Origin: Rhizobium redzepovicii
GTDB taxonomy: Bacteria > Pseudomonadota > Alphaproteobacteria > Rhizobiales > Rhizobiaceae
Direction: 5' to 3'
Assembly: GCF_019793435.1 (NCBI RefSeq)
Contig: NZ_JAILYH010000013.1
Span: 62,001 to 126,000, forward strand
Length of the DNA: 64,000 nucleotides
In this document: piece after piece, positions 5,107 through 51,146 of the stretch
How the letters are laid out: every line of letters begins with the position of its first letter
Numbering within the stretch: position 1 is the stretch's first letter
Notes under the pieces: model-generated
Databases searched by the model: none
Told to the model about the DNA's origin: nothing
The model's input: the letters and a program-made list of their open reading frames with translations, nothing else
Translations under genes and position numbers: made by a program

Positions 5107-6504
5107 ATGACCCGCGAAATCAGGCTGAACGCCTTCGATATGAATTGCGTCGGACACCAGTCGCCGGGGCTCTGGCGCCATCCGCGTGACAAGTCCTGGA
5201 CCTACAAGGATCTCGACTATTGGGTGCATCTGGCAAAGACGCTGGAGCGCGGCAAGTTCGATGGACTGTTTATCGCCGACGTGCTCGGCGTCTACGATGT
5301 GCTGAACGGCAATGTCGACGCCGCACTTCGCCATTCGGCGCAGGTGCCGGTCAATGATCCGCTGCAGCTGATCCCCACCATGGCCTACGAGACCGAGCAC
5401 CTCGGCTTCGGCCTGACGGCGTCGCTCTCCTTCGAGTACCCCTACACCTTCGCCCGCCGCATATCGACGCTCGACCATCTAACGAAAGGGCGTGTCGGCT
5501 GGAATATCGTCACCTCCTACCTCAACAGCGGGGCGCTCAATATCGGCCAGCCGGCGCAGACGAAGCATGATGACCGCTACGATCTTGCCGAGGAATATCT
5601 CGAGGTCTGCTACAAGCTCTGGGAGGGAAGCTGGGAGGACGGCGCCGTCGTCCGCGACCGGGAAAGCGGTATCTTCACCCATCCTGACAAGGTCCACCCG
5701 ATCCGCCATTCCGGCAAGCATTTCAACGTGCCCGGCATTCACTTGAGCGAACCCTCGCCGCAGCGTACGCCAGTGCTCTACCAGGCCGGCGCCTCCAGCC
5801 GCGGCAAGGATTTCGCCGGCGCCCATGCCGAGTGCATCTTCGTCGCATCCCCGTCGAAGCCTGTGCTGAAGCGTTACGTCGCCAATGTCCGCGAGGCGGC
5901 CGAACGCGTCGGCCGCAACCCGCGCGAAATCCTTGCCTTCAACCTGCAGACCGTCATCCTCGGCGAAACGGATGCGGAGGCACAGCGGAAGTTTAATGAA
6001 TACCGCAAATACGCCTCCTTCGAGGGTGCGCTGACGCTGATCTCCGGCTGGACCGGCATCGATTTCGGCCAGTTCGGGCCGGACGAGGTGCTGCGGCACC
6101 GCCATACCAATGCGGTGCAATCGGCCGTCGAAACCTTCACCACCATCGATCCCACCAAGGAATGGACGGTGCGCGAAATGGCCGACTGGGTCGGCATCGG
6201 CGGTTTCGGCCCGGTTTTCGTCGGCTCGCCGCAGACGGTCGCCGATCTGATGCAGGAATGGATCGAAGACACCGATGTCGACGGCTTCAATCTTGCCTAT
6301 GCTGTGACGCCCGAAAGTTTCGAGGACGCGGTCGATCTGCTGGTACCGGAACTGCAAAAGCGCGGTGTCTACAAGACCGAATACGCCAAAGGAACGCTGC
6401 GCGAAAAGCTCGGGGGAGCAGGGCCGCGGCTCGTCGCGCCACATCCCGGCGCCGCATATCGCAATCTCTTCGACGCGCCCGCACGTGTCGCCGCCAACGG
6501 CTGA
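5107..6504 (+). CDS. LLM-class FMN-dependent monooxygenase (NtaA/SnaA/DszA family)
   Basis: 465 residues, full length for the nitrilotriacetate monooxygenase component A group of bacterial luciferase-like enzymes. Diagnostic stretches are LNAFDMNCVGHQSPGLW, FDGLFIADVLGVYDV, RRISTLDHLTKGRVGWNIVTS and LYQAGASSRGKDFAG. Enzymes of this group use FMNH2 from a separate reductase to cleave C-N or C-S bonds in small organics. RBS AAGGAAGAAAG precedes the ATG. A clear paralogue is at 57755-59113. Location behind an importer implies that the imported compound is its substrate; which compound is not known. Confidence 0.92.
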   Translation: MTREIRLNAFDMNCVGHQSPGLWRHPRDKSWTYKDLDYWVHLAKTLERGKFDGLFIADVLGVYDVLNGNVDAALRHSAQVPVNDPLQLIPTMAYETEHLGFGLTASLSFEYPYTFARRISTLDHLTKGRVGWNIVTSYLNSGALNIGQPAQTKHDDRYDLAEEYLEVCYKLWEGSWEDGAVVRDRESGIFTHPDKVHPIRHSGKHFNVPGIHLSEPSPQRTPVLYQAGASSRGKDFAGAHAECIFVASPSKPVLKRYVANVREAAERVGRNPREILAFNLQTVILGETDAEAQRKFNEYRKYASFEGALTLISGWTGIDFGQFGPDEVLRHRHTNAVQSAVETFTTIDPTKEWTVREMADWVGIGGFGPVFVGSPQTVADLMQEWIEDTDVDGFNLAYAVTPESFEDAVDLLVPELQKRGVYKTEYAKGTLREKLGGAGPRLVAPHPGAAYRNLFDAPARVAANG

Positions 6505-40215: not shown

Positions 40216-41136
40216 ATGGATTTGGCGGAAAGTAAGGTCGGCACGAGTGCAATCTATCAGCCCGGCGCAAGCAGCATAGAGGGTTCGCCGACGGCGCTGC
40301 AGATGTTTCATGACCATCCGCTGGTCATGGCTATGCCGCACTGGCATGCGCAGGTTGAGGTCAACTTCGTCATGCGCGGCACTGTCCATTATCGGATGAG
40401 CGACCACGAATTTCGGCTGAACGCCGGCGAAATGTGCCTCTTCTGGGGTGGCCAGCCGCATCAGATGGATGAATCCTCGGATGATTCGCTCTATGCCGGC
40501 GCCCATCTGCCGCTCATTTATTTCTTCCGGTTGCGCCTGCCGATCAGCATTTCCAGCCGGCTGATGAAGGGCGAGACGCTGCTGACCTCGGCGACCGATG
40601 CTGCCGACAACGAGAATTTCGCCCGTTGGTTCCGCTATTCCAAGTCCGGTGATTCCGCCAAGGCTCAGCACGCGGTCGACGAATTGCTGCTGCGCATCGA
40701 GCGTATCGCGCTCGAACCCTATTCGATGACGACATCGAAGACGGTCGCCAGCCTTGAAGGCGATCAGCCGCATCCGAATTCCTCGCGCAACGTTGCACGC
40801 ATGTGCGATTTCATCGCCGCCAATTTCCTGCAGGACATCGATTCGGTCGACATTGCCCGCGCCGCCGACCTGCATCCGAAATATGCGATGAACCTCTTCA
40901 AGCGATCGACCGGCATGACGCTGAGCAAATATGTGACGCTGCTCAGGCTGTCGCGCGCCCAGGCGATGCTGATGAGCGAAGGCGCCAACGTGCTGCAGGT
41001 GGCGATGGACAGCGGCTTCGGCTCGATCAGCGCGTTCAACAAATCCTTTCGCCATATCGCCGGCATGTCCCCATCGGACTTCCGCCGCGATATCCGGCTG
41101 GTGACGACGGTCCCCGCCGGCGCCTTCCGGAACTAG
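40216..41136 (+). CDS. AraC-family transcriptional regulator
   Basis: 306 residues. The N-terminal cupin part includes MPHWHAQVEVNFVMRGTVHYRM and LNAGEMCLFWGGQPHQM; the C-terminal AraC HTH pair occupies about 195-295, with ARAADLHPKYAMNLFKRSTGMTLSKYVTLLRLSRA then VAMDSGFGSISAFNKSFRHIAGMSPSDFRR. RBS AAGGGAAC precedes the ATG. Divergent from the sugar importer operon, which it probably activates when the sugar binds the cupin. Confidence 0.93.
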   Translation: MDLAESKVGTSAIYQPGASSIEGSPTALQMFHDHPLVMAMPHWHAQVEVNFVMRGTVHYRMSDHEFRLNAGEMCLFWGGQPHQMDESSDDSLYAGAHLPLIYFFRLRLPISISSRLMKGETLLTSATDAADNENFARWFRYSKSGDSAKAQHAVDELLLRIERIALEPYSMTTSKTVASLEGDQPHPNSSRNVARMCDFIAANFLQDIDSVDIARAADLHPKYAMNLFKRSTGMTLSKYVTLLRLSRAQAMLMSEGANVLQVAMDSGFGSISAFNKSFRHIAGMSPSDFRRDIRLVTTVPAGAFRN

Positions 41137-41231
41137 ATCGGGGACGTGTCGCACTTCGGCGTTTTACCTGTTCTGCCGCTTGCCTTTCCTCTGAGCAGAA
41201 AGACGTCGGCGCTTAAGATGGTGGCAGAAAG

Positions 41232-41260
41232 TGCGCATTTACTGTGCAAGTGCATGCACT
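41232..41260 (+). promoter_or_regulatory. Candidate NtrC activator sites upstream of the guanidine operon
   Basis: TGCGCA-N5-TGTGCA (41232-41248) resembles the NtrC site TGCACY-N5-RGTGCA with about 10 of 12 matching positions, and a perfect 12-bp palindrome AGTGCATGCACT (41249-41260) abuts it. They lie 60-90 bp upstream of the sigma-54 promoter, a reasonable position for an enhancer-binding protein. Confidence 0.45.
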
Positions 41261-41320
41261 ATTCAGGCTGCGGGCGAAAGACAGCCTGTTCACCGTCAAT
41301 GAATTCAACAATTTATAGTT

Positions 41321-41336
41321 TGGCACGCCCTTTGCT
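41321..41336 (+). promoter_or_regulatory. Sigma-54 (RpoN) promoter
   Basis: TGGCACG-CCCT-TTGCT matches the -24/-12 consensus TGGCACG-N4-TTGCW at every defined position. Predicted transcription start is about 41347, immediately before the riboswitch. It implies activation by a bacterial enhancer-binding protein, most plausibly NtrC under nitrogen limitation. Confidence 0.85.
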
Positions 41337-41349
41337 TCGATAGCTGCAG

Positions 41350-41468
41350 AGTTGGTGGCTAGGGTTCCGGCGTCGCAGGGCGCGGCTGGTCCGAGAGCTG
41401 CCACCGGCGGGGGAGACATCCCGCCGGGTGCACGGCGGGACAAAAGCCCGGGAGACCTCGTAAGCCAA
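41350..41468 (+). promoter_or_regulatory. Guanidine-I riboswitch (ykkC/yxkD class)
   Basis: The conserved blocks occur in order: CTAGGGTTCCG (from about 41359), GGCTGGTCCGAGAGC, and ACGGCGGGACAAAAGCCCGG followed by GAGA (ending about 41455). A variable GC-rich stem (CCGGCGGG with CCCGCCGG) sits between the second and third blocks. The 5' TTGG (41352-41355) can pair with CCAA (41465-41468) as part of the closing stem. This class binds guanidinium and turns on guanidine export or degradation genes. Here it leads directly into an ABC importer and carboxylase operon. Confidence 0.93.
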
Positions 41469-41505
41469 GGGATTGGCGGCACGATGGTCATTGCCGATCC
41501 CTTTT
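41467..41505 (+). terminator. Riboswitch-controlled intrinsic terminator
   Basis: AAGGGATTGGC (41467-41477) pairs with GCCGATCCCTT (41493-41503), allowing one G-T pair, and is followed by TTT. Its 5' arm overlaps the CCAA that can close the riboswitch, so ligand binding would block the terminator and switch the operon on. It ends 25 bp before the binding-protein start. Confidence 0.8.
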
Positions 41506-41530
41506 GACGAAAAGCAAAAGGGGAATTTCA

Positions 41531-42604
41531 ATGCAGACTTTTTCGAAGCTTCTTTCAATCACCGCACTGACGGCATCCTTGGCGCTGGGCGTCGGCTCCA
41601 TCGCGAAAGCCGAACAGAAGACCGATTTCAAGGTCGCCTGGTCGATCTATGTCGGCTGGATGCCGTGGGGATACGCGGCCGATCACGGCATCGTCAAGAA
41701 ATGGGCTGACAAATACGGCATCAAAATCGAGGTCACCCAGTTCAACGACTACGTCGAATCGATGAACCAGTACACGGCCGGTGCCTTCGATGCCGTGACG
41801 CTGACCAATATGGACGGACTGTCGATCCCGGCCGCCGGCGGCGTCGATACCACAGCCGTGATCGTCGGCGACTTTTCGAACGGCAATGATGCGGTCATCC
41901 TGAAAGACAAGGCGAGCCTTGCCGACATCAAGGGCCAGAACGTCAATCTCGTCGAATTCTCCGTCTCGCACTATCTGCTGGCCCGGGCGCTCGAAAGCAT
42001 CAAGATGACCGAGCGCGACGTCAAAGTGGTCAACACTTCCGATGCCGACATGGTCGCTGCCTACAAGACGGCTGACGTAACGGCTGTCGTCACGTGGAAT
42101 CCGCTGGTCTCGACCATCCTCGAAGATCCCACGGCCAAGAAGGTTTTCGACAGTTCGCAGGTGCCGGGCGAAATCATCGACCTGATGGTCGCCAATTCAG
42201 GCGTGCTGAAGGACAACCCGAATTTCGGCAAGGCGCTCGCCGGCATCTGGTATGAAACCGCAGCACTGCTGACATCAGACAGTGCCGACGGCAAGGCCGC
42301 CCGCGAGGCGATGGGCCAGGCATCGGGCACCGATCTCAAGGGTTTCGAATCCCAACTCGCAGCCACCAAGCTGTTTGCCAAGCCGGCCGATGCCGTTGCC
42401 TTCACTGCCTCGGGCAGCCTGCCGAAGACAATGGATCTCGTCCGCAACTTCCTGTTCGAAAAAGGCCTGCTCGGCAATGGCGCGCCGTCCGCCGACGTCA
42501 TCGGCATCGAAATGCCGGACGGCAAGATCCTCGGCGATAGCGGCAACGTCAAGCTGCGGTTCACCGAGACCTACATGAAGGCGGCCGCTGACGGTTCGCT
42601 CTGA
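41531..42604 (+). CDS. Guanidine/urea-carboxylase-linked ABC transporter binding protein
   Basis: 357 residues from ATG 41531, preceded by AAGGGG; the TTG at 41504 is inside the terminator and is not the start. Signal peptide about 1-26 (SIAKAEQ). The mature protein is of the NitT/TauT/SsuA type: VAWSIYVGWMPWGYAADHGIVKKWADKYGI, FDAVTLTNMDGLSIPAAGGVDTTAVIVGDFSNG. This group is regularly linked to carboxylase and DUF1989 genes and has been annotated as urea-related. The guanidine riboswitch points to guanidine or a guanidino compound as the ligand. Confidence 0.9.
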   Translation: MQTFSKLLSITALTASLALGVGSIAKAEQKTDFKVAWSIYVGWMPWGYAADHGIVKKWADKYGIKIEVTQFNDYVESMNQYTAGAFDAVTLTNMDGLSIPAAGGVDTTAVIVGDFSNGNDAVILKDKASLADIKGQNVNLVEFSVSHYLLARALESIKMTERDVKVVNTSDADMVAAYKTADVTAVVTWNPLVSTILEDPTAKKVFDSSQVPGEIIDLMVANSGVLKDNPNFGKALAGIWYETAALLTSDSADGKAAREAMGQASGTDLKGFESQLAATKLFAKPADAVAFTASGSLPKTMDLVRNFLFEKGLLGNGAPSADVIGIEMPDGKILGDSGNVKLRFTETYMKAAADGSL

Positions 42605-42669: not shown

Positions 42670-43488
42670 ATGCGCTGGATCAACACGAAGCCGAGCCGGG
42701 GCGCGCAGCTTGCCTTGACGCTGCTGCCCTTCGTGCTGCTGGTCGTTGCCTACACGTTCGGCTCGGCGGCGCGGCTGGCGGAAAATGCCAACGACAAACT
42801 GCTGCCCGGTCTTGCCGGTTTTGCCGATGCGATCGATCGCCTGGCCTTCATCGCCGATCCGCGCACCGGCGAATACCTGCTCTGGTCCGATACCGGAGCG
42901 AGCCTGGTGCGCCTGTTTGCCGGCCTTGGCATCTCCACTATCACCGCGCTCGTCATCGGCATGCTGATCGGCATGCTGCCTTATATGAGGGCGCTGCTCT
43001 CCCCTTTCGTCGCCGTTATCTCAATGGTGCCGCCGCTGGCGCTGCTGCCGATCCTGTTCATCGCCATGGGGCTCGGCGAAGCCTCGAAGATCGCGCTCAT
43101 CGTCATCGGCGTTGCGCCAACGATGATCCGCGACCTTGCGCTGAAGGCGCTGGAGCTGCCGCGTGAGCAGATCGTCAAGGCTGAAACGCTCGGCGGCTCC
43201 TCCTGGCAGATCGGCCTTCGTGTCGTGCTGCCGCAGATCTTGCCGCGGCTGATCACCTGCCTCAGGCTTCAACTCGGTCCTGCCTGGCTATTCCTGATCG
43301 CGGCAGAAGCGATCTCGTCGGATTCCGGTCTCGGCTACCGCATCTTCCTCGTCCGCCGCTATCTCTCGATGGACGTCATCTTTCCCTATGTCGTCTGGAT
43401 CACGCTGCTCGCCGTGATCATGAACTATATCCTCGATCGCATCCGCATCGCCGTCTTCCCCTGGTCGGAGCTGGAGAAGCAGGCATGA
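42670..43488 (+). CDS. Guanidine-linked ABC transporter permease (SsuC/TauC type)
   Basis: 272 residues, about six membrane segments, from ATG 42670 with GCGGAG upstream. LPREQIVKAETLGGSSWQIGLRVVLPQILPRLI is the EAA loop. It overlaps the ATPase gene by 4 bp. A weaker 5-bp hairpin (GCGGC with GCCGC) lies in the 65-bp gap before it. Confidence 0.92.
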   Translation: MRWINTKPSRGAQLALTLLPFVLLVVAYTFGSAARLAENANDKLLPGLAGFADAIDRLAFIADPRTGEYLLWSDTGASLVRLFAGLGISTITALVIGMLIGMLPYMRALLSPFVAVISMVPPLALLPILFIAMGLGEASKIALIVIGVAPTMIRDLALKALELPREQIVKAETLGGSSWQIGLRVVLPQILPRLITCLRLQLGPAWLFLIAAEAISSDSGLGYRIFLVRRYLSMDVIFPYVVWITLLAVIMNYILDRIRIAVFPWSELEKQA

Positions 43489-44315
43489 GCGAGTTGGTGA
43501 TCGAAAAGGTCTGGAAAGAGTATGGCGACCAGATCGTCCTCGAAGATGTGTCGCTGATTGTCGCCGCGCGCGCCTTCGTGGCCCTTGTCGGACCGTCCGG
43601 CTGTGGCAAGTCGACGTTCCTGCGCATGCTGCTCGGCCAGGAGCGGCCGACGCGGGGCACGATCCTGCTCGACGGCGAAGCGCTGCCGCAGGAGCCAGGC
43701 CCGGATCGCGGCGTCGTCTTCCAGCGCTACTCCGTCTTCCCGCATCTGACGGTCCTCGGAAACGTGCTGCTCGGGCGCGAACTCTCGGCGTCCCGCTACA
43801 AGGCCAAGCTTTTTGGCGCTGCCCGCCGCGATGCCGTCGACGAAGCTCGGCGGCTGATCGGCGAAGTCGGCCTTTCCGGCGCCGAGGACAAATATCCGGC
43901 GCAACTATCAGGCGGCATGCAGCAGCGCCTTGCGCTGGCGCAGGCGCTGATCATGAAACCGAAGGTGCTGCTGCTCGATGAGCCATTCGGCGCACTCGAC
44001 CCCGGCATCCGCGCCGAAATCCACACATTGATGAAGCGGCTCTGGCACGAGACGCAGATGACCGTCGTCATGGTGACGCACGACATGCGCGAGGCATTCA
44101 CGCTGGCGACGCGGGTCGTCGCCTTCGAGCGCAAGCGTGACCGCCCGGAGGAAAAGGAGCGCTACGGCGCGACGATCACCAAGGACATTTCGATCTGGCC
44201 GCCGAGGCTTGCCGGCGCGCCCACCATCTTCAGCCCCGACCGGGACGGCCCGGTCATTTCTCTGGGCCTTCGCCGGGACGACCCGGCTTCCAGTCCGTCA
44301 GGAGAAAAGCCATGA
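43485..44315 (+). CDS. Guanidine-linked ABC transporter ATP-binding protein (SsuB/TauB type)
   Basis: 276 residues. Walker [11 protein letters not shown]-loop GVVFQRYSVFPHLTVLGNVL, signature LSGGMQQRLALAQAL and Walker B VLLLDEPFGALDPGIR. A C-terminal extension of about 45 residues rich in charged and proline residues is typical of the urea-carboxylase-linked group. It overlaps the next gene by 4 bp (ATGA). Confidence 0.93.
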   Translation: MSELVIEKVWKEYGDQIVLEDVSLIVAARAFVALVGPSGCGKSTFLRMLLGQERPTRGTILLDGEALPQEPGPDRGVVFQRYSVFPHLTVLGNVLLGRELSASRYKAKLFGAARRDAVDEARRLIGEVGLSGAEDKYPAQLSGGMQQRLALAQALIMKPKVLLLDEPFGALDPGIRAEIHTLMKRLWHETQMTVVMVTHDMREAFTLATRVVAFERKRDRPEEKERYGATITKDISIWPPRLAGAPTIFSPDRDGPVISLGLRRDDPASSPSGEKP

Positions 44316-45133
44316 TGCATGTCAGACGTTCGCCCGAAGAGATCGCCGCCAACCGGCAGCGTTACGAGGAACATCAGAAAAAGGGGCTGGAATTCGCGCC
44401 GAAGGCCCTACCGGCGCCGAGCCCCCTGCCCGCCCCCGGCATCGATGCGGCTGCGATCATCCATCAGGAAACCATCCCCGGCGGCTGGTACTGGTCGACC
44501 GCGCTGAAGCGCGGCGAGGCGCTCCGCATCGATCAGGGCGAAGGCGGATCGACTGTGGTGCTCGTTGCCTGGAACGCCACTGATACAAGCGAACGGCTCA
44601 ATCTGGTCGATACGGTCAAGGTTCAGTGGACGACCGCCCTCGGCAAGGGCCGCGTCATCTTCTCAGATATGGGCCGGGTGATGTTTTCGCTGATTGAGGA
44701 CAGTTCCGGCGCCCATGACTGCCTGATGGGTGGTTCGACGGCAGCTTCGAACGCCGCAAAATATCCTGGCGTGAAGACCCGCAACACTCGCGACAATCTC
44801 GTGCTCGTCGCCGGCAAGCTTGGTCTCACCAGACGCGATATTCCTGCGATTCTCAATCTCTTCGCCCCGGTTCGCGTCGACGACAACGGTGGCTTCCACT
44901 GGCGCGGCAAACTCTCCAACAGCGGCGATTATGCCGAACTGCGCGCCGAGATGGACATGATCGTCGGCTTCTCGAATTGCCCGCATCCGCTCGATCCCGA
45001 CCCGGTCTATGCGCCGAAGCCGGTGATCGTCACGCGCTTTCGCGCGCCCGCACCCGCAGTGGACGATCTCTCGCGCACAGCAACCGCCGAAGCCCTTCGC
45101 GGCTTCGAGAACAACGCCTCGATGCTGGCCTGA
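44312..45133 (+). CDS. Carboxyguanidine deiminase subunit (DUF1989; annotated as urea amidolyase-associated protein)
   Basis: 273 residues, RBS AGGAG. DUF1989 motifs include RGEALRIDQGEGGSTVVLVAWNATDTSERLN, AHDCLMGGSTAASNAAKYPG and FAPVRVDDNGGFHWRGKLSNSGDYAELRAEMDMIVGFSNCPHPLD. This is the larger of the two paired proteins formerly called urea carboxylase-associated proteins, which have been shown in other bacteria to act together as carboxyguanidine deiminase (CgdAB), converting carboxyguanidine to allophanate and ammonia. Which letter applies to which subunit I cannot assign. It lies between the transporter and carboxylase genes. Confidence 0.9.
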   Translation: MMHVRRSPEEIAANRQRYEEHQKKGLEFAPKALPAPSPLPAPGIDAAAIIHQETIPGGWYWSTALKRGEALRIDQGEGGSTVVLVAWNATDTSERLNLVDTVKVQWTTALGKGRVIFSDMGRVMFSLIEDSSGAHDCLMGGSTAASNAAKYPGVKTRNTRDNLVLVAGKLGLTRRDIPAILNLFAPVRVDDNGGFHWRGKLSNSGDYAELRAEMDMIVGFSNCPHPLDPDPVYAPKPVIVTRFRAPAPAVDDLSRTATAEALRGFENNASMLA

Positions 45134-45145
45134 GGGAGAATGACG

Positions 45146-45796
45146 ATGACCGATTTCATCAAGACTTCAGCTTCGCGCAGCCTCGAAAACGCCGTGCAGG
45201 AACATTTCATCCCGGCCGAAGCGCCGTGGTCCGGCATCGTGCGCAAGGGTCAGACCATCCGCATCGAGGACAGCTACGGCCAACAGGCAATCGATACGCT
45301 GTTTTATCGCGCCGATGACTTTGCCGAGCGTTATTCCAACCAGGATACGATGCGGGCACAAGGCGGCGCCTATATCGGCACCGGCACGAAGATCATTTCG
45401 AACGAGGGCAACGTCATGCTGGTCATGACGGCCGATAGCTGCGGCCGCCACGATACATCAGCCGGCGCCTGCTCCTGCGAGAGCAACACGGTGCGTTTCG
45501 GCCACGGAACCAAATACCTGCATGCCTGCCGCGACAATTTCGTGATCGAGGTGACAAAACACGGCATGAGCAAGCGCGACATCGTGCCGAACATCAATTT
45601 CTTCATGAACGTGCCGATCAAGCCGAACGGCGAGATGACTATCGTCGACGGCATTTCCGCGCCTGGCGATTATGTCGAACTGGTGGCGGAGATGGACGTG
45701 CTCTGCGTCATCTCCAATTGCCCGCAGATCAACAATCCCTGCAACGGCTTCGATCCCACGCCGATCCGGGTGCTGATCTGGGACGGCGAGGACTGA
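45146..45796 (+). CDS. Carboxyguanidine deiminase subunit (DUF1989, smaller partner)
   Basis: 216 residues from ATG 45146, spaced 7 bp from GGGAG; ATG 45140 is nearer. Motifs include RIEDSYGQQAIDTLFYRADD, SCGRHDTSAGACSCESNTVRFG (His/Cys cluster that probably binds a metal) and APGDYVELVAEMDVLCVISNCPQINNPCNG. It is a paralogue of the preceding gene product, with which it probably forms a heteromer. It ends 3 bp before the carboxylase start. Confidence 0.9.
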   Translation: MTDFIKTSASRSLENAVQEHFIPAEAPWSGIVRKGQTIRIEDSYGQQAIDTLFYRADDFAERYSNQDTMRAQGGAYIGTGTKIISNEGNVMLVMTADSCGRHDTSAGACSCESNTVRFGHGTKYLHACRDNFVIEVTKHGMSKRDIVPNINFFMNVPIKPNGEMTIVDGISAPGDYVELVAEMDVLCVISNCPQINNPCNGFDPTPIRVLIWDGED

Positions 45797-45799
45797 TCG

Positions 45800-48700
45800 A
45801 TGTTCACCAAAGTCCTTATCGCCAATCGCGGCGAAATCGCCGTCCGCGTCATCCGCACATTGAAGAGGATGGGCATTGCCTCCGTTGCCGTCTATTCCGA
45901 TGTCGATCGATTCTCGAAGCCGGCACTGACCGCCGATGAGGCCATGCGCCTCGGCACGGCGCCCGCTGCCGAAAGCTATCTTGATGTCGACGCCGTCATT
46001 GCCGCCTGCAAGGCGACGGGCGCTGAGGCAGTGCACCCAGGCTACGGCTTCCTCTCGGAGAATATCGGCTTTGCCGAGCGGCTCGCCGCTGAAGGCATCG
46101 CCTTCATCGGCCCGCGCCCAGAGCATCTGTCGGCCTTCGGCTTGAAGCATACGGCGCGCGAATTGGCGAAAGCGAGCGGCGTGCCGCTACTGCCCGGCAC
46201 CGATCTCTTGCAGAGCGTCGACGAGGCGCTTTCGGCTGCCGAGACCGTCGGTTATCCCGTCATGCTGAAGAGCACGGCCGGCGGCGGCGGTATCGGCATG
46301 CAGCTCTGCGCCGATGCGGCCGGCCTCAAGGCTTCCTTCGAAAGCGTGCAGCGGACCGCGCGCGCCAGCTTCGGCGATGCGCGCGTCTACATCGAGCGTT
46401 TCGTTGCCGAAGCGCGCCATGTCGAGGTGCAGATCTTCGGCGACGGCAAGGGCGGCGTGATCGCGCTCGGCGAACGCGACTGCTCGCTGCAGCGGCGGAA
46501 CCAGAAGGTCGTCGAGGAGACGCCTGCGCCTGGCCTTTCTGCGGAGACAAGGGCGCGGCTGCACAAGGCGGCGGTCGACTTGGGAAGCTCGGTCTCCTAT
46601 GAATCGGCCGGCACTGTCGAGTTCATTTATGATCCCCAGCGCCAGGAATTCTATTTCCTCGAGGTCAATACCCGCCTGCAGGTCGAACATCCCGTCACGG
46701 AAGCTGTCTTCGGCATCGACCTCGTCGAATGGATGATCCGTCAGGCGGCCGGCGAGGATGTGCTCTCGGGTGCTGGGGGTCTGACGCCGAAGGGTGCGGC
46801 GATCGAGATGCGGATCTATGCCGAGATGCCGCATGCCGATTTCCGCCCGAGTGCCGGCCTTTTGACCGAAGTCATTTTTCCGGAAAGCACCCGCGTCGAC
46901 GGCTGGATCGAGACGGGAACCGAGGTCACGCCCTTCTACGACCCGATGCTTGCCAAGCTGATCGTGGCGGCGGCAGACCGGCCGGCGGCGATCGAGAAGC
47001 TTAAGGCGGCACTCGCCGAAACATCGATATCGGGCATCGAGACCAATCTCGCTTACCTGAGGGCGATCGCCGCTTCCGAATTGCTGGCCAGCGCCAAGGT
47101 GGCAACGACGGCTCTACGCGACTTCGCCTTCGTTCCCGATGTCGTCGAGGTTCTCGCGCCCGGGGCGCAGTCAAGCATCCAGGAACTTCCGGGCCGGCTC
47201 GGCCTCTGGCATGTCGGCGTGCCGCCGAGTGGGCCGATGGACGAGCGCTCCTTCCGCCATGCCAATCGGCTGGTCGGCAATGCCGATGTGACGGCTGCGC
47301 TGGAGTTGACCGTTTCCGGTCCGACATTGCGATTTTATGCCGACCAGACGATCGCGCTTGCTGGCGCGCGGATGCCAATGACATGCGACGGCGTAAAATT
47401 GCCGCATGACGCCCCGGTGACAATCCGCGCCGGTCAGGTTCTGTCGATCGGTACCATCGAAGGACCGGGACAGCGCGCCTATCTCGCCGTCGCCGGTGGT
47501 TTAGCCGCTCCCGTTGTGCTCGGCTCGCGCGCGACCTTCGGCCTTGGCCAATTCGGCGGTAACGCCACCGGCACACTGAAGACAGGGCACGTGCTGCATT
47601 TTGCCCGACAGGTACCGGCCGAACCGGTGAGACCGGCGACGGAGCCAGCCGCCTTGACGCGCGAATGGGATGTCGGCGTCGTCTATGGCCCGCACGGGGC
47701 TCCCGATTTCTTTCAGGACAGCGATATCGAGACGCTGTTTTCGACGGCTTATGAGGTGCATTTCAACAGTGCCCGCACCGGGGTGCGCCTGATCGGCCCA
47801 GCCCCGCAATGGGCACGAAGCGACGGCGGTGAGGCGGGGCTGCATCCCTCCAACCTGCACGACAACGCCTATGCGATCGGGGCGATCGATTTCACCGGCG
47901 ATATGCCGATCATTCTGGGGCCCGATGGTCCAAGCCTTGGCGGCTTCGCTTGCCCGGCGGTGATCGCCCGCGAAGAGCAGTGGAAGATGGGCCAGTTCAA
48001 GCCCGGCGACAGAATCCGTTTTCATGCGCTGGCTCGGCCGGAAGACCCGATCGCCGGCCCGGCGGTGCGGCGGCCCTCGGAAGAAACAGGTTCGCCGATC
48101 CTCGGTATCAGCGAGGATGGCCCGGTTTCTGTCGTTTATCGCCGCCAAGGCGACGACAATCTGCTCGTCGAATATGGGCCGATGACGCTCGATATCGCGC
48201 TGCGGCTGCGGGTGCACCTGCTGATGCAGGCGGTCGTGAAGGCCCGCCTCCCTGGCGTCGTCGACCTCACCCCCGGTATCCGCTCGCTGCAGATCCATTA
48301 CGACGGCACGCAGTTGACGCGCCGGCGCCTGCTTGGGCTGCTCTCCGAGATCGAGGCGACGCTTCCGGCAGCGCAGGAGGTCAAGGTGCCGAGCCGCATC
48401 GTGCACCTGCCGCTTTCCTGGAACGATCCGGATGCCGAGCTTGCGATGCGCAAATATCAGGAGCTCGTGCGACCGAATGCGCCCTGGTGCCCCTCGAATA
48501 TCGAGTTCATCCGCCGCATCAACGGTCTTCCCGATGAACAGGCCGTCCGCGATATCGTCTTCGACGCAAGCTACCTCGTGCTGGGTCTCGGTGACGTCTA
48601 TCTCGGCGCGCCGGTTGCGACCCCGACCGACCCACGCCATCGCCTCGTGACGACGAAGTATAATCCCGCCCGCACCTGGACGCCGGAGAATGCCGTCGGC

Positions 48701-49339
48701 ATCGGCGGCGCCTATATGTGCATTTACGGCATGGAGGGACCGGGCGGCTACCAGCTCTTCGGCCGCACCATCCAGGTGTGGAACACATGGCGGGAGACGC
48801 CGGCCTTTACCAGGGGCAAACCCTGGCTGCTGAACTTCTTCGACCAGATCCGTTTCTTCCCAGTCAGTAACCAGGAGTTGACGGAGGCGCGGGCCGCCTT
48901 TCCGCATGGAGGTTATCCCATCAGGATCGAGGAGACGGAATTCTCCTATGCCGCCTATGAGAGGGAATTGCAGGCGAATTCGGCGTCGATCAGCCGCTTC
49001 AAGGCAACGCAGCAGGCTGCCTTCGATGCCGAACGCCAGCGCTGGAAGGACGCCGGGCTCGACAGTTTCGTCACCGACGAAGGCACGGGCGAAAGTCCCG
49101 ATGGGGATATTCCCGACGGCTGCTTCGGTGTTGCCAGCGCCGTGCCCGGCAATATCTGGAAATTGCTGGTCGAGCCGGGCTCCCCGGTTGCGGCCGGCGA
49201 TACACTCGCCATCATCGAATCGATGAAAATGGAAATCAACGTCACCGCCCATGCGGCAGGCCGCGTTCGCGACCTGCGCGCCGGGCCGGGAAGAAACGTC
49301 AAAGCCGGCGATATTATCGTCGTCCTGGAGGAATGCTGA
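45800..49339 (+). CDS. Biotin-dependent guanidine carboxylase (urea carboxylase family)
   Basis: 1179 residues in the order biotin carboxylase (about 1-450: FTKVLIANRGEIAVRVIRTL, AGGGGIGMQ, FLEVNTRLQVEHPVTEA), KipA-like carboxyltransferase half (about 455-760: GRLGLWHVGVPPSGPMDER), KipI-like half (about 770-980) and C-terminal biotin carrier with ESMKM, biotinyl lysine K1143. It carboxylates guanidine (or urea) with ATP and bicarbonate. There is no fused allophanate hydrolase; that gene follows after one base. The guanidine riboswitch and the paired deiminase genes favour guanidine as the real substrate. Confidence 0.93.
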   Translation: MFTKVLIANRGEIAVRVIRTLKRMGIASVAVYSDVDRFSKPALTADEAMRLGTAPAAESYLDVDAVIAACKATGAEAVHPGYGFLSENIGFAERLAAEGIAFIGPRPEHLSAFGLKHTARELAKASGVPLLPGTDLLQSVDEALSAAETVGYPVMLKSTAGGGGIGMQLCADAAGLKASFESVQRTARASFGDARVYIERFVAEARHVEVQIFGDGKGGVIALGERDCSLQRRNQKVVEETPAPGLSAETRARLHKAAVDLGSSVSYESAGTVEFIYDPQRQEFYFLEVNTRLQVEHPVTEAVFGIDLVEWMIRQAAGEDVLSGAGGLTPKGAAIEMRIYAEMPHADFRPSAGLLTEVIFPESTRVDGWIETGTEVTPFYDPMLAKLIVAAADRPAAIEKLKAALAETSISGIETNLAYLRAIAASELLASAKVATTALRDFAFVPDVVEVLAPGAQSSIQELPGRLGLWHVGVPPSGPMDERSFRHANRLVGNADVTAALELTVSGPTLRFYADQTIALAGARMPMTCDGVKLPHDAPVTIRAGQVLSIGTIEGPGQRAYLAVAGGLAAPVVLGSRATFGLGQFGGNATGTLKTGHVLHFARQVPAEPVRPATEPAALTREWDVGVVYGPHGAPDFFQDSDIETLFSTAYEVHFNSARTGVRLIGPAPQWARSDGGEAGLHPSNLHDNAYAIGAIDFTGDMPIILGPDGPSLGGFACPAVIAREEQWKMGQFKPGDRIRFHALARPEDPIAGPAVRRPSEETGSPILGISEDGPVSVVYRRQGDDNLLVEYGPMTLDIALRLRVHLLMQAVVKARLPGVVDLTPGIRSLQIHYDGTQLTRRRLLGLLSEIEATLPAAQEVKVPSRIVHLPLSWNDPDAELAMRKYQELVRPNAPWCPSNIEFIRRINGLPDEQAVRDIVFDASYLVLGLGDVYLGAPVATPTDPRHRLVTTKYNPARTWTPENAVGIGGAYMCIYGMEGPGGYQLFGRTIQVWNTWRETPAFTRGKPWLLNFFDQIRFFPVSNQELTEARAAFPHGGYPIRIEETEFSYAAYERELQANSASISRFKATQQAAFDAERQRWKDAGLDSFVTDEGTGESPDGDIPDGCFGVASAVPGNIWKLLVEPGSPVAAGDTLAIIESMKMEINVTAHAAGRVRDLRAGPGRNVKAGDIIVVLEEC

Positions 49340-49340
49340 C

Positions 49341-51146
49341 ATGCTGCCGACCATTCTCGATCTCTCAACCCTTCGCGCCGCCTATCAATCCGGCCTGACG
49401 CCGCTCGATGCCATCGAAGAGGTGATCTCCCGCCGCGCCGCCTCTAGAGATGCGGCAATCTTCATCACTCCGGTGCCGGATGAGGAGCTGCGCGCTGCCG
49501 CCAAAGCCTTGATGGCACGCGCGCCTGAGGCAAACAGCCTGCCGCTCTGGGGCGTGCCCTTCGCCGTGAAAGACAATATCGACGCCGCTGGCCTGCCGAC
49601 GACGGCCGCCTGCCCGGCCTATGAGTATCGGCCGGAGGCGGACTCCACGGTCGTTGCTCGGTTGAAGGCAGCCGGCGCCATCATCATCGGCAAGACCAAT
49701 CTCGACCAGTTCGCCACCGGTCTCAACGGCACGCGCTCGCCCTATGGAGCGCCGCGTTCGGTCTTCGATGCGGCCTATATTTCAGGCGGTTCGAGCTCCG
49801 GATCATCAGTTACGGTCGCTTCGGGCCTGGCGGCCTTCGCGCTCGGCACGGATACGGCAGGCTCCGGCCGCGTGCCGGCTGCTTTCAACAATCTGGTCGG
49901 CATCAAGCCGACGCCGGGCCTCTTGCCGAATACCGGCGCCGTTCCGGCCTGCAAGAGCGTCGACTGCATCACGATCTTTGCCGCAACCGTCGGCGATGGC
50001 GTTGCGATCCGCAAAGTCGCCGAAGGCTTTGATGCCGCAGATCCCTTCTCGCGCCCCGCCAAGCCGGCGAAGCTGCCGGTATCGGGCCTGCGCATCGGCG
50101 TCCTGGCCGGCGCCGAACGGGAATTCTTCGGGGACAAGGAGGTGGAGGCGCTCTACGATCAGGCGATCGAGCGGGCAAAAGCGCTCGGAGCGACCATCGT
50201 GCCCTTCGATTACACGCCGTTCCGCGAGGCTGCCGCCCTTCTCTATGACGGGCCGTGGGTTGCCGAACGTCTGGCGGCGGTCGAGGATTTCCTCGCCACC
50301 AACGCCGCCGATTTCGATCCGACGGTCAGAGGGATCATCGAAGGCGCCAAGGGCAAGACCGCGGTCGAGGCCTTCAACGGCCGTTACCGGCTGGAGGAGC
50401 TGCGCCGCAAGACCGAGGCCGAATGGGAAAAGGCTGATGTTCTGCTGCTGCCGACCGCGCCAACCACCTATACGGTCGCCGACATGCTGGCCAATCCCGT
50501 CGTGCTCAACGGCCGCCTCGGCCGCTACACCAATTTCGTCAACCTGCTCGATTGCGCGGCAATCGCCGTTCCGGCCGGCTTCGGGAAAGGCGGCTTGCCG
50601 GGTGGCGTCACCGTCATCGCACCCGCTTTCACCGACGATGCGCTGGCGCCGCTTGCCGATGCGCTGCACCGCGCAGCGGGTTCCGGCATGGGCATCGACC
50701 GGCAGGCGGCGATCCCCGAAGCAAGCCGTGTTGTGCCTGGCGATGACGGTTTCATCGAAATCGCGGTCGTCGGTGCGCATCTGACCGGCATGCCGCTCAA
50801 TCACGAACTGGCAGGCGCCGGCGGGCGTCTGGTCAAGACCTGCCGCACGGCCGGCGATTATCGCCTCTTCGTCTTGCCCAATACCACGCCAGCGAAACCA
50901 GGGCTGCTGCGCGAACCCGGCCACAAGGGTCAGGGGCTGGAGGTCGAGGTCTGGGCACTGCCGGCCGATGCTTTCGGCAGGTTCGTCCAGAAGATTCCGG
51001 CACCCCTCGGCATCGGTAAGCTGACGCTCGAAGACGGTTCCAGCGTCTCCGGCTTCGTCTGCGAGGCCCATGCGGTGAAAGGTGCGGAGGAAATCACCGC
51101 GCTTGGCGGCTGGCGCAACTACATCAGCGCCAAGCTGGCGAGCTGA
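49341..51146 (+). CDS. atzF: Allophanate hydrolase
   Basis: 601 residues from ATG 49341; the frame upstream overlaps the carboxylase gene. N-terminal amidase-signature domain (about 1-440) with the lysine in PFAVKDNIDAAGLPTTAACPAY and the Ser-cisSer motif in SGGSSSGSSVTVASGLAAFALG and GSGRVPAAF. The C-terminal domain (about 460-601, GHKGQGLEVEVWALPADAFGRFV) is specific to AtzF/DUR1,2-type allophanate hydrolases. It hydrolyses allophanate to ammonia and CO2, the last step of guanidine (or urea) carboxylation. Confidence 0.95.
   Translation: MLPTILDLSTLRAAYQSGLTPLDAIEEVISRRAASRDAAIFITPVPDEELRAAAKALMARAPEANSLPLWGVPFAVKDNIDAAGLPTTAACPAYEYRPEADSTVVARLKAAGAIIIGKTNLDQFATGLNGTRSPYGAPRSVFDAAYISGGSSSGSSVTVASGLAAFALGTDTAGSGRVPAAFNNLVGIKPTPGLLPNTGAVPACKSVDCITIFAATVGDGVAIRKVAEGFDAADPFSRPAKPAKLPVSGLRIGVLAGAEREFFGDKEVEALYDQAIERAKALGATIVPFDYTPFREAAALLYDGPWVAERLAAVEDFLATNAADFDPTVRGIIEGAKGKTAVEAFNGRYRLEELRRKTEAEWEKADVLLLPTAPTTYTVADMLANPVVLNGRLGRYTNFVNLLDCAAIAVPAGFGKGGLPGGVTVIAPAFTDDALAPLADALHRAAGSGMGIDRQAAIPEASRVVPGDDGFIEIAVVGAHLTGMPLNHELAGAGGRLVKTCRTAGDYRLFVLPNTTPAKPGLLREPGHKGQGLEVEVWALPADAFGRFVQKIPAPLGIGKLTLEDGSSVSGFVCEAHAVKGAEEITALGGWRNYISAKLAS

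Follow-up and report, generated by a model that had tools for sequence, protein, structure and literature searches.

Sigma-54 promoters ahead of guanidine-I riboswitches in Pseudomonadota: a predicted two-signal control unit for guanidine assimilation in Rhizobium redzepovicii

Introduction

The window analyzed here, a stretch of 64,000 nucleotides of Rhizobium redzepovicii DNA, contains a guanidine-I riboswitch directly behind a sigma-54 promoter element, and this pairing is the rule across the Pseudomonadota sampled, far above chance. At the locus itself, the arrangement very probably controls the use of guanidine as a nitrogen source by two signals, nitrogen gating transcription and guanidine gating translation. 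A broader reading is favored with a probability of roughly two in three. According to this reading, the guanidine-I riboswitches of Pseudomonadota would as a rule make up the downstream part of a unit that answers to two signals, its upstream part being an NtrC/sigma-54 promoter gating by nitrogen starvation. In Alphaproteobacteria, the first aptamer helix would lie about a dozen bases or fewer from the 5' end of the RNA, and translation would be switched via three mutually exclusive hairpins. Efflux would stay outside the gate, guanidine being food only when the cell is starving and poison at any time. Each half, NtrC/sigma-54 control and guanidine-I, is already known or predicted separately. 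The present comparison adds the fused unit, how general it is, its separation from efflux genes and its probable translational platform.

The guanidine riboswitch and its operon

A preliminary description of this DNA had called a ykkC-class guanidine riboswitch. This was borne out by the Rfam covariance search (cmscan), in which the guanidine-I match exceeded its gathering score of 63 with an E value of 7e-13 (Table 1). The whole genome holds one match to the guanidine-I model and one to the guanidine-II model. The genes downstream run in the order substrate-binding protein, permease, ATPase, UAAP1, UAAP2, urea-type carboxylase and allophanate hydrolase. By sequence comparison, residue 697 of the carboxylase is an aspartate, at the place where the urea enzyme of K. 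lactis has N1330, which we take to be the position deciding between guanidine and urea. Guanidine carboxylases have been described as having aspartate and urea carboxylases asparagine (PMC12186494, accessible text). Based on the gene order and families, D697 and this aspartate/asparagine rule, the operon most likely serves guanidine import and carboxylase-dependent assimilation. Among named records, the best match is to a Rhizobium sp. C104 plasmid, at 99.8% over 491 bases. Plasmid NC_008379 of R. johnstonii 3841 matches at 86.5% identity.

Table 1. Features of the guanidine locus, with positions counted from the first letter of the window
Feature	Position	Strand	Basis
NtrC-type enhancer palindrome TGCGCATTTACTGTGCA (putative)	41232-41248	+	9/10 positions of TGCAC-N7-GTGCA; centre about -107
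IHF-like site ATTCAACAATTTA in the enhancer-promoter gap	41303-41315	+	8/9 positions of WATCAANNNNTTR
Sigma-54 -24/-12 element TGGCACGCCCTTTGCT	41321-41336	+	12/12 consensus positions
Predicted transcription start	41347	+	12 nt past the C (41335) in the -12 GC; from element position
Guanidine-I riboswitch aptamer, RF00442	41348-41456	+	cmscan, 81.1 bits; sole such match in the genome
Hairpin C	41454-41489	+	pairs 41454-41457/41486-41489, 41459-41461/41481-41483, 41464-41468/41473-41477; all in the free minimum-energy fold
Hairpin A	41467-41503	+	41467-41479/41491-41503; predicted ON state, Shine-Dalgarno free; triple-arm test
Hairpin B	41498-41523	+	41498-41506/41515-41523; predicted OFF state, Shine-Dalgarno masked; triple-arm test
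Shine-Dalgarno AAAAGGGG	41516-41523	+	read directly; 7 nt ahead of the ATG at 41531
Substrate-binding protein, guanidine ABC transporter	41531-42604	+	NCBIfam TIGR03427 (ABC_peri_uca), 549.9 bits, cutoff 333.9; "guanidine" from riboswitch context
ABC permease	42670-43488	+	matches to permease models, all under cutoff
ABC ATPase	43485-44315	+	ABC ATPase model matches, none over cutoff among the best 25 of 187
Guanidine-II riboswitch, RF01068	44237-44286	+	cmscan, 40.2 bits, gathering score 32, E 1.5e-4; wholly within the 3' end of the ATPase CDS
Carboxyguanidine deiminase subunit (UAAP1)	44312-45133	+	TIGR03425, above cutoff
Carboxyguanidine deiminase subunit (UAAP2)	45140-45796	+	TIGR03424, above cutoff
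Guanidine (urea-type) carboxylase	45800-49339	+	TIGR02712, 1804 bits, over cutoff; D697
Allophanate hydrolase	49341-51146	+	TIGR02713, 787 bits, above cutoff

The sigma-54 promoter and its pairing with guanidine-I

The consensus -24/-12 element claimed in the preliminary description is present in full: it has GG-N10-GC and follows the TGGCAC/TTGCW consensus. The sequence TGGCACG-CCCT-TTGCT is the single exact match to TGGCACGNNNNTTGCW in the window, and the 7.0-Mb genome has six such matches and one match to a backward control pattern. The position of the element agrees with the proposed transcription start at about 41347. The first pairing region had been placed three bases further on; P1 proper begins at 41354, 7 nt past the predicted +1. 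A pattern scan of 41100-41600 found no sigma-70-like site, and the genome has two rpoN copies (Sigma54_DBD matches). The riboswitch leader would thus be driven by a sigma-54 promoter, with both RpoN dependence and the start site predicted. The second rpoN, on genome contig C57, lies about 9 kb from nifA, a placement like that on a symbiotic plasmid.

A census of guanidine-I loci was carried out in which the element was scored as GG-N10-GC with at least 9 of the 12 consensus positions, over the 163 nt leading up to the aptamer core region. Guanidine-I matches were present in 108 of 148 genomes in the search of the genus, 53 of 297 in that of the family, 31 of 385 in that of the class and 43 of 398 in that of the phylum. 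At least 120 stretches from named genomes of all phyla were also taken in, with phyla assigned from the genome names. Removal of 14 sequence duplicates reduced 353 cores to 339, and loci with less than 100 nt upstream (L105, L181, L211) were left out of the counts, as were sub-cut-off Rfam matches of the family and phylum searches. The class search gave four sub-cut-off matches; L087-L089 were taken, G521 was left out, and L087 was counted and has the element. Eleven loci without a match to the core pattern were scored apart. In five of them (L080, L107, L108, L274, L382), a site scoring 10-12 points lies close to the aptamer; L088 has a distant site alone (10 points), and L054, L089, L270, L284 and L300 have no site of 9 or more points. 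L088 and L089 are weak sub-threshold guanidine-I matches with altered core letters and may be other ykkC-type aptamers.

Among the matches listed, the element is present at 261 of 289 distinct guanidine-I loci of Pseudomonadota, a total that leans to one genus (107 of the 289 loci), and at 253 it reaches at least 10 of 12 positions. By source, it was found at 107/107 loci of the genus, 34/39 of the family, 23/33 of other Alphaproteobacteria, 35/36 of other Pseudomonadota and, among the matches listed, 65/121 in the contig scan over all phyla. Grouped over all sources and among the matches listed, the element precedes 180/201 loci in Alphaproteobacteria and 81/88 in Beta- and Gammaproteobacteria. 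The counts are 0/28 in Firmicutes, 0/9 in Actinobacteria and others, and 3/10 in cyanobacteria (including one Gastranaerophilales; none with at least 10 points), again among the matches listed. The other phyla together thus have it at 3 of 47 listed loci, against the 261 of 289 in Pseudomonadota. Loci with at least 10 points number 178 in Alphaproteobacteria, 75 in Beta/Gamma and none in Firmicutes, cyanobacteria or Actinobacteria/others. The same criterion was reached by 181 of 3,360 shuffled controls (about 5% per sequence). At a displaced position 360-523 nt upstream it was reached at 12 of 277 loci; at the true position, 251 of these loci reach it.

The spacing between promoter and aptamer is nearly fixed in Alphaproteobacteria. 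The C of the -12 element lies 26-28 nt from the aptamer core in the genus, and the predicted start lies 9-20 nt from the core (median 15) at the 178 alphaproteobacterial loci with at least 10 points. At 77 Beta/Gamma loci with at least 10 points, this distance is 16-122 nt (median 57). These longer leaders (e.g., L098, L139) contain CACAAT in 26 of 77 cases (0 of 178 in Alphaproteobacteria), and a conserved CAATGG is found ahead of the core. A second guanidine-I behind a sigma-54 site was observed in Devosia sp. Root413D1 (L157; core at 5426, reverse strand). There, the product of the downstream gene by eye resembles a peptide-type substrate-binding protein instead of the usual guanidine type, and it may belong to an importer of another guanidino compound.

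Loci without the element

Among the matches listed, 28 of the 289 loci of Pseudomonadota fail the sigma-54 criterion, and sigma-54 is therefore not obligatory. The criterion errs on the strict side, since 7 of these 28 are near-consensus: they keep TGGCA[C/T], and their TTGC is replaced by TTGA or TTGG. Among the failing loci are three of Rhodobacteraceae (L149, L160, L202), one of these from Marivita. Also failing are two Nitrosomonas loci (L151, L186) and one Nitrosospira locus (L153), which are all three ammonia-oxidizer loci found. The first gene of L153 and L186 is amino-acid-permease-like (cluster 6, by eye). Nitrifiers have been described to have guanidine-I adjoining such permeases, and comammox to grow on guanidine (PMC11410670, accessible text). 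Ammonia oxidizers would need no nitrogen gating of guanidine use. In Firmicutes, the first gene falls in an SMR efflux cluster at 19 of the 28 guanidine-I loci among the matches listed. Both groups of exceptions would fit a split of nutrient and stress roles by promoter class. Three alphaproteobacterial loci of family f45 (L070, L076, L081) have in common TGTAATTGTATACAG or a close variant near the promoter position, without a qualifying sigma-54 element; sigma-54 may have been replaced there by another promoter type.

The loci that lack a qualifying element, Rhodobacteraceae and ammonia oxidizers among them, could be taken to favor a match at -24/-12 that is due to chance or is a relic, with an unseen sigma-70-type promoter driving the leader. 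This is very improbable given the complete count in the genus, the fixed spacing, the low rate in the controls and the lack of a sigma-70-like match. A sigma-70 promoter and a chance match were both rejected on the census, the shuffles, the displaced control and the sigma-70 scan.

The enhancer, the IHF-like site and the candidate activators

NtrC palindromes usually lie about 80-160 nt upstream of the transcription start. The palindrome of the window lies inside this range, and its place is kept in the genus. It is of the type TGCAC-N7-GTGCA, which we take to be the NtrC consensus, with GCAC-N7-GTGC as the NtrC core. In an open dyad search of 209 thinned promoters, GCAC-N7-GTGC was found in 26 (1.3 expected); it has the top count among the best 25 dyads and ranks second by z-score, after GTGT-N0-ACAC (14 vs. 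0.13 expected). Matches to TGCAC-N7-GTGCA at 9 or more of 10 positions were found in 17 of 68 thinned promoters of the genus (shuffle mean 0.73), 1/31 of the family (0.4) and 0/23 of other Alphaproteobacteria (0.33). Among the matches listed, the counts are 2/14 in Alphaproteobacteria of the contig scan (0.07) and 5/31 and 7/42 in Beta/Gamma (0.27 and 0.9). Palindromes scoring at least 8 number 32 in the genus, and 24 of them have their center 80-84 nt ahead of the -24 element.

The gap between palindrome and promoter contains an IHF-like site close to WATCAANNNNTTR, presumably the IHF consensus. The perfect consensus was found in 41 of 68 thinned promoters of the genus (shuffle mean 0.55), and the six perfect sites listed for the genus start 18 nt upstream of the T of the -24 element. 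It is rare beyond the genus (1 perfect site in 141), where most Alphaproteobacteria have weak enhancer and IHF motifs or lack them. At the sites of the window, binding of NtrC and IHF is predicted from these motifs.

The genome encodes NtrC (above the TIGR01818 cutoff), preceded by a kinase gene read as ntrB. Two other activators of sigma-54, NtrX and NifA, are also encoded, each above its model cutoff, and the contig of the operon is close to rhizobial plasmids. The sigma-54 promoter could accordingly be real and respond to another enhancer-binding protein such as NifA or NtrX. This seems unlikely, given that the upstream site is of the TGCAC-N7-GTGCA type and has a constant place in the genus, and that related genes of Burkholderia cenocepacia depend on NtrC. 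In strain H111, an ntrC mutant grown under nitrogen limitation showed lower expression of I35_7283-7286 (urea carboxylase and its ABC transporter) and yielded zero reads for the binding-protein gene (PMC5491218, accessible text). These genes were read as urea genes, and guanidine is not mentioned in that part of the text. A sigma-54 element stands ahead of guanidine-I at Paraburkholderia and Caballeronia loci (L135, L138) and also at L101. A local enhancer-binding protein beside the operon was considered and rejected: none of the nine Sigma54_activat matches of the genome is on the contig of the window (C35).

The expression platform

The hairpin that follows the aptamer had been described as an intrinsic terminator. 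This call was not confirmed: a strict terminator scan was empty between 41100 and 41600, and a switch at the Shine-Dalgarno sequence accounts better for the hairpin. Three hairpins can be drawn there (Table 1). Hairpins A and B are mutually exclusive, since TCCCTT is common to the 3' arm of A and the 5' arm of B. Hairpin C, which reaches the 3' end of the aptamer, takes in the 5' arm of A. The free minimum-energy fold contains C and B (41499-41506 paired with 41515-41522) at -85.5 kcal/mol, and the fold with A forced reaches -81.3 kcal/mol. P1 is unformed in the free fold, and in the forced fold 41354-41359 pairs three bases off its Rfam partner. Neither fold thus draws P1 exactly as Rfam does, and these ligand-free energies serve as a guide only.

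Conservation was assessed with a triple-arm test, which looks for three arms, the middle one common and the last one on the Shine-Dalgarno sequence, at a shuffle fraction of at most 0.05. The test was passed by 25 of 60 thinned alphaproteobacterial loci, with 35 failing, and by 7 of 61 in Beta/Gamma. The translational platform is claimed for Alphaproteobacteria only, because the test is weak in Beta- and Gammaproteobacteria. The arm common to A and B pairs with both partners despite changed letters in L064, L062 and L073; in L064, both pairings are kept as GGGTTGGCG/CGCCAACCC and CCAACCCC/GGGGTTGG. In 25 aligned alphaproteobacterial sequences, 96.4% of the cells of hairpin A pair, and 3 of 10 pairs have both letters changed, a number attained by 2 of 500 shuffles. 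Slid controls of hairpin A pair at no more than 58.8%, and two of them equal or exceed its double-change count. Because loop lengths shift the register of hairpins B and C in the alignment, B is judged by the per-sequence test and C by the fold and by examples. Counterparts of C with changed letters were seen by eye in L061, L065, L078, L073 and L076.

A terminator would be the textbook mode, with the sigma-54 promoter unchanged and hairpin A plus UUUU ending transcription unless guanidine prevents it. The literature assigns guanidine-I to the control of termination, in most cases as an ON switch of transcription (PMC12186494, accessible text) and with the word "presumably" in one account (PMC12508155, accessible text). 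Hairpin A is strong and is followed by T4 in the window. L027, L060 and L198 have a strong stem followed by five T or TTT.TTT, and some gammaproteobacterial loci (L091, L097) do so too. Against this stand the empty strict scan and the rarity of T4 after a strong stem, found in just 6 of 60 thinned alphaproteobacterial loci. Furthermore, with A as the OFF state the ribosome site would be covered by hairpin B when the switch is ON, and the common arm of A and B keeps both pairings under letter changes. A terminator at this locus is therefore judged rather unlikely. From the common arm, the counts for hairpin A, the rare T4 and the empty scan, the hairpin after the aptamer is probably part of a Shine-Dalgarno switch and not a terminator. 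Termination may still contribute a weak role in Rhizobiaceae, because hairpin A is followed there by 4-6 T.

Guanidine-II within the operon and before efflux genes

The guanidine-II riboswitch lies about 2.9 kb past guanidine-I in the same operon, just ahead of the start codon of the deiminase. It is wholly within the ATPase reading frame at 29 of 30 loci of the genus that were examined, so that the same DNA specifies a protein tail as well as an aptamer. RNA structure and ATPase tail would be under joint constraint. The thirtieth locus (L264) is a separate guanidine-II before an efflux gene.

Off the operon, guanidine-II of the same genus has the sigma-54 element in 0 of 21 cases (20 scored plus L264; G105, G025 and G126 were left out of this efflux control). 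All 21 have an efflux gene match within about 70 nt of the aptamer start by tblastn, of the SMR type in 5 and the PACE/BTP type in 16, with each type assigned by Pfam from a single protein. The same ligand in the same genus, with another gene role (efflux), is found without the nitrogen-type promoter.

Relation to known systems

The locus is like other guanidine-I (ykkC subtype 1, RF00442) loci in its aptamer fold, its conserved core and the import and carboxylase genes downstream. It differs in the sigma-54 promoter at a nearly fixed distance and in an alphaproteobacterial platform that looks translational rather than a terminator. NtrC/sigma-54 promoters of nitrogen assimilation, for which glnA-type promoters are the model, have the enhancer palindrome, the IHF-like site and the GG-N10-GC element in common with it; here, by contrast, the transcript would open directly with a metabolite-sensing aptamer. 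Guanidine-I and guanidine-II also occur together in guanidine operons of enterobacteria (Raoultella, Klebsiella and Erwinia; PMC12186494, accessible text). Two guanidine switch classes in one assimilation gene set are common to both, but in the window guanidine-II is inside the ATPase CDS, ahead of the deiminase genes.

Sigma-54 control has been predicted for COG3665 "urea carboxylase" genes in Alpha-, Beta- and Gammaproteobacteria (PMC12316311). In contrast to the present unit, the accessible text of that work has neither guanidine nor ykkC, and riboswitches appear solely in a reference title. The accessible text on NtrC in Pseudomonas stutzeri A1501 (PMC8443478) mentions no urea carboxylase, allophanate or guanidine, and thus gives no support. 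The pairing of a guanidine riboswitch with sigma-54 is absent from the accessible texts of PMC8443478, PMC4842269, PMC12508155 and PMC11410670, and in that of PMC12186494 the word "sigma" is absent and "promoter" occurs once, in a reference title. The preliminary description knew of no RpoN promoter fused to guanidine-I; in agreement, no paper joining the two was found in the part of the open literature covered, which did not include the original 2017 guanidine-I paper.

Discussion

The proposed two-signal unit would work as follows. Under nitrogen limitation, NtrC-P at the palindrome near -107, aided by bending through IHF, would activate sigma-54 polymerase at the -24/-12 element. With a start at about 41347, a few bases of RNA would precede the aptamer. 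As long as guanidine is absent, hairpin C would hold the 5' arm of A, and the 3' arm of A would pair with the Shine-Dalgarno sequence as hairpin B, leaving the importer gene untranslated. With guanidine, the folded aptamer would keep its 3' end, C would be lost, A would form and the Shine-Dalgarno sequence would be exposed, so that the operon is expressed. Of the steps in this model, the coupling of the ligand to hairpin C has the least support. Guanidine-II within the ATPase CDS would provide a second guanidine check ahead of the degradative enzymes.

The preliminary description had seen a logical AND of nitrogen-dependent transcription and guanidine-dependent readthrough. Its nitrogen arm is supported by the NtrC-type site, ntrC and the two rpoN genes; its readthrough arm is not, as the anatomy favors translational control. 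The generality of the pairing in the Pseudomonadota sampled, the IHF-like site and the guanidine-II riboswitch go beyond that description.

With the sensor directly behind a sigma-54 promoter, guanidine would probably be eaten only under nitrogen starvation and when guanidine is present. The unit would be a small, naturally occurring AND gate with inputs that can be addressed one by one, through ntrC and rpoN or through the aptamer. It would also give a riboswitch class that has been described as controlling transcription an expression platform acting on translation. These results bear on the question of when guanidine is a nutrient and when it is a stress, two roles that promoter class would separate within one genus.
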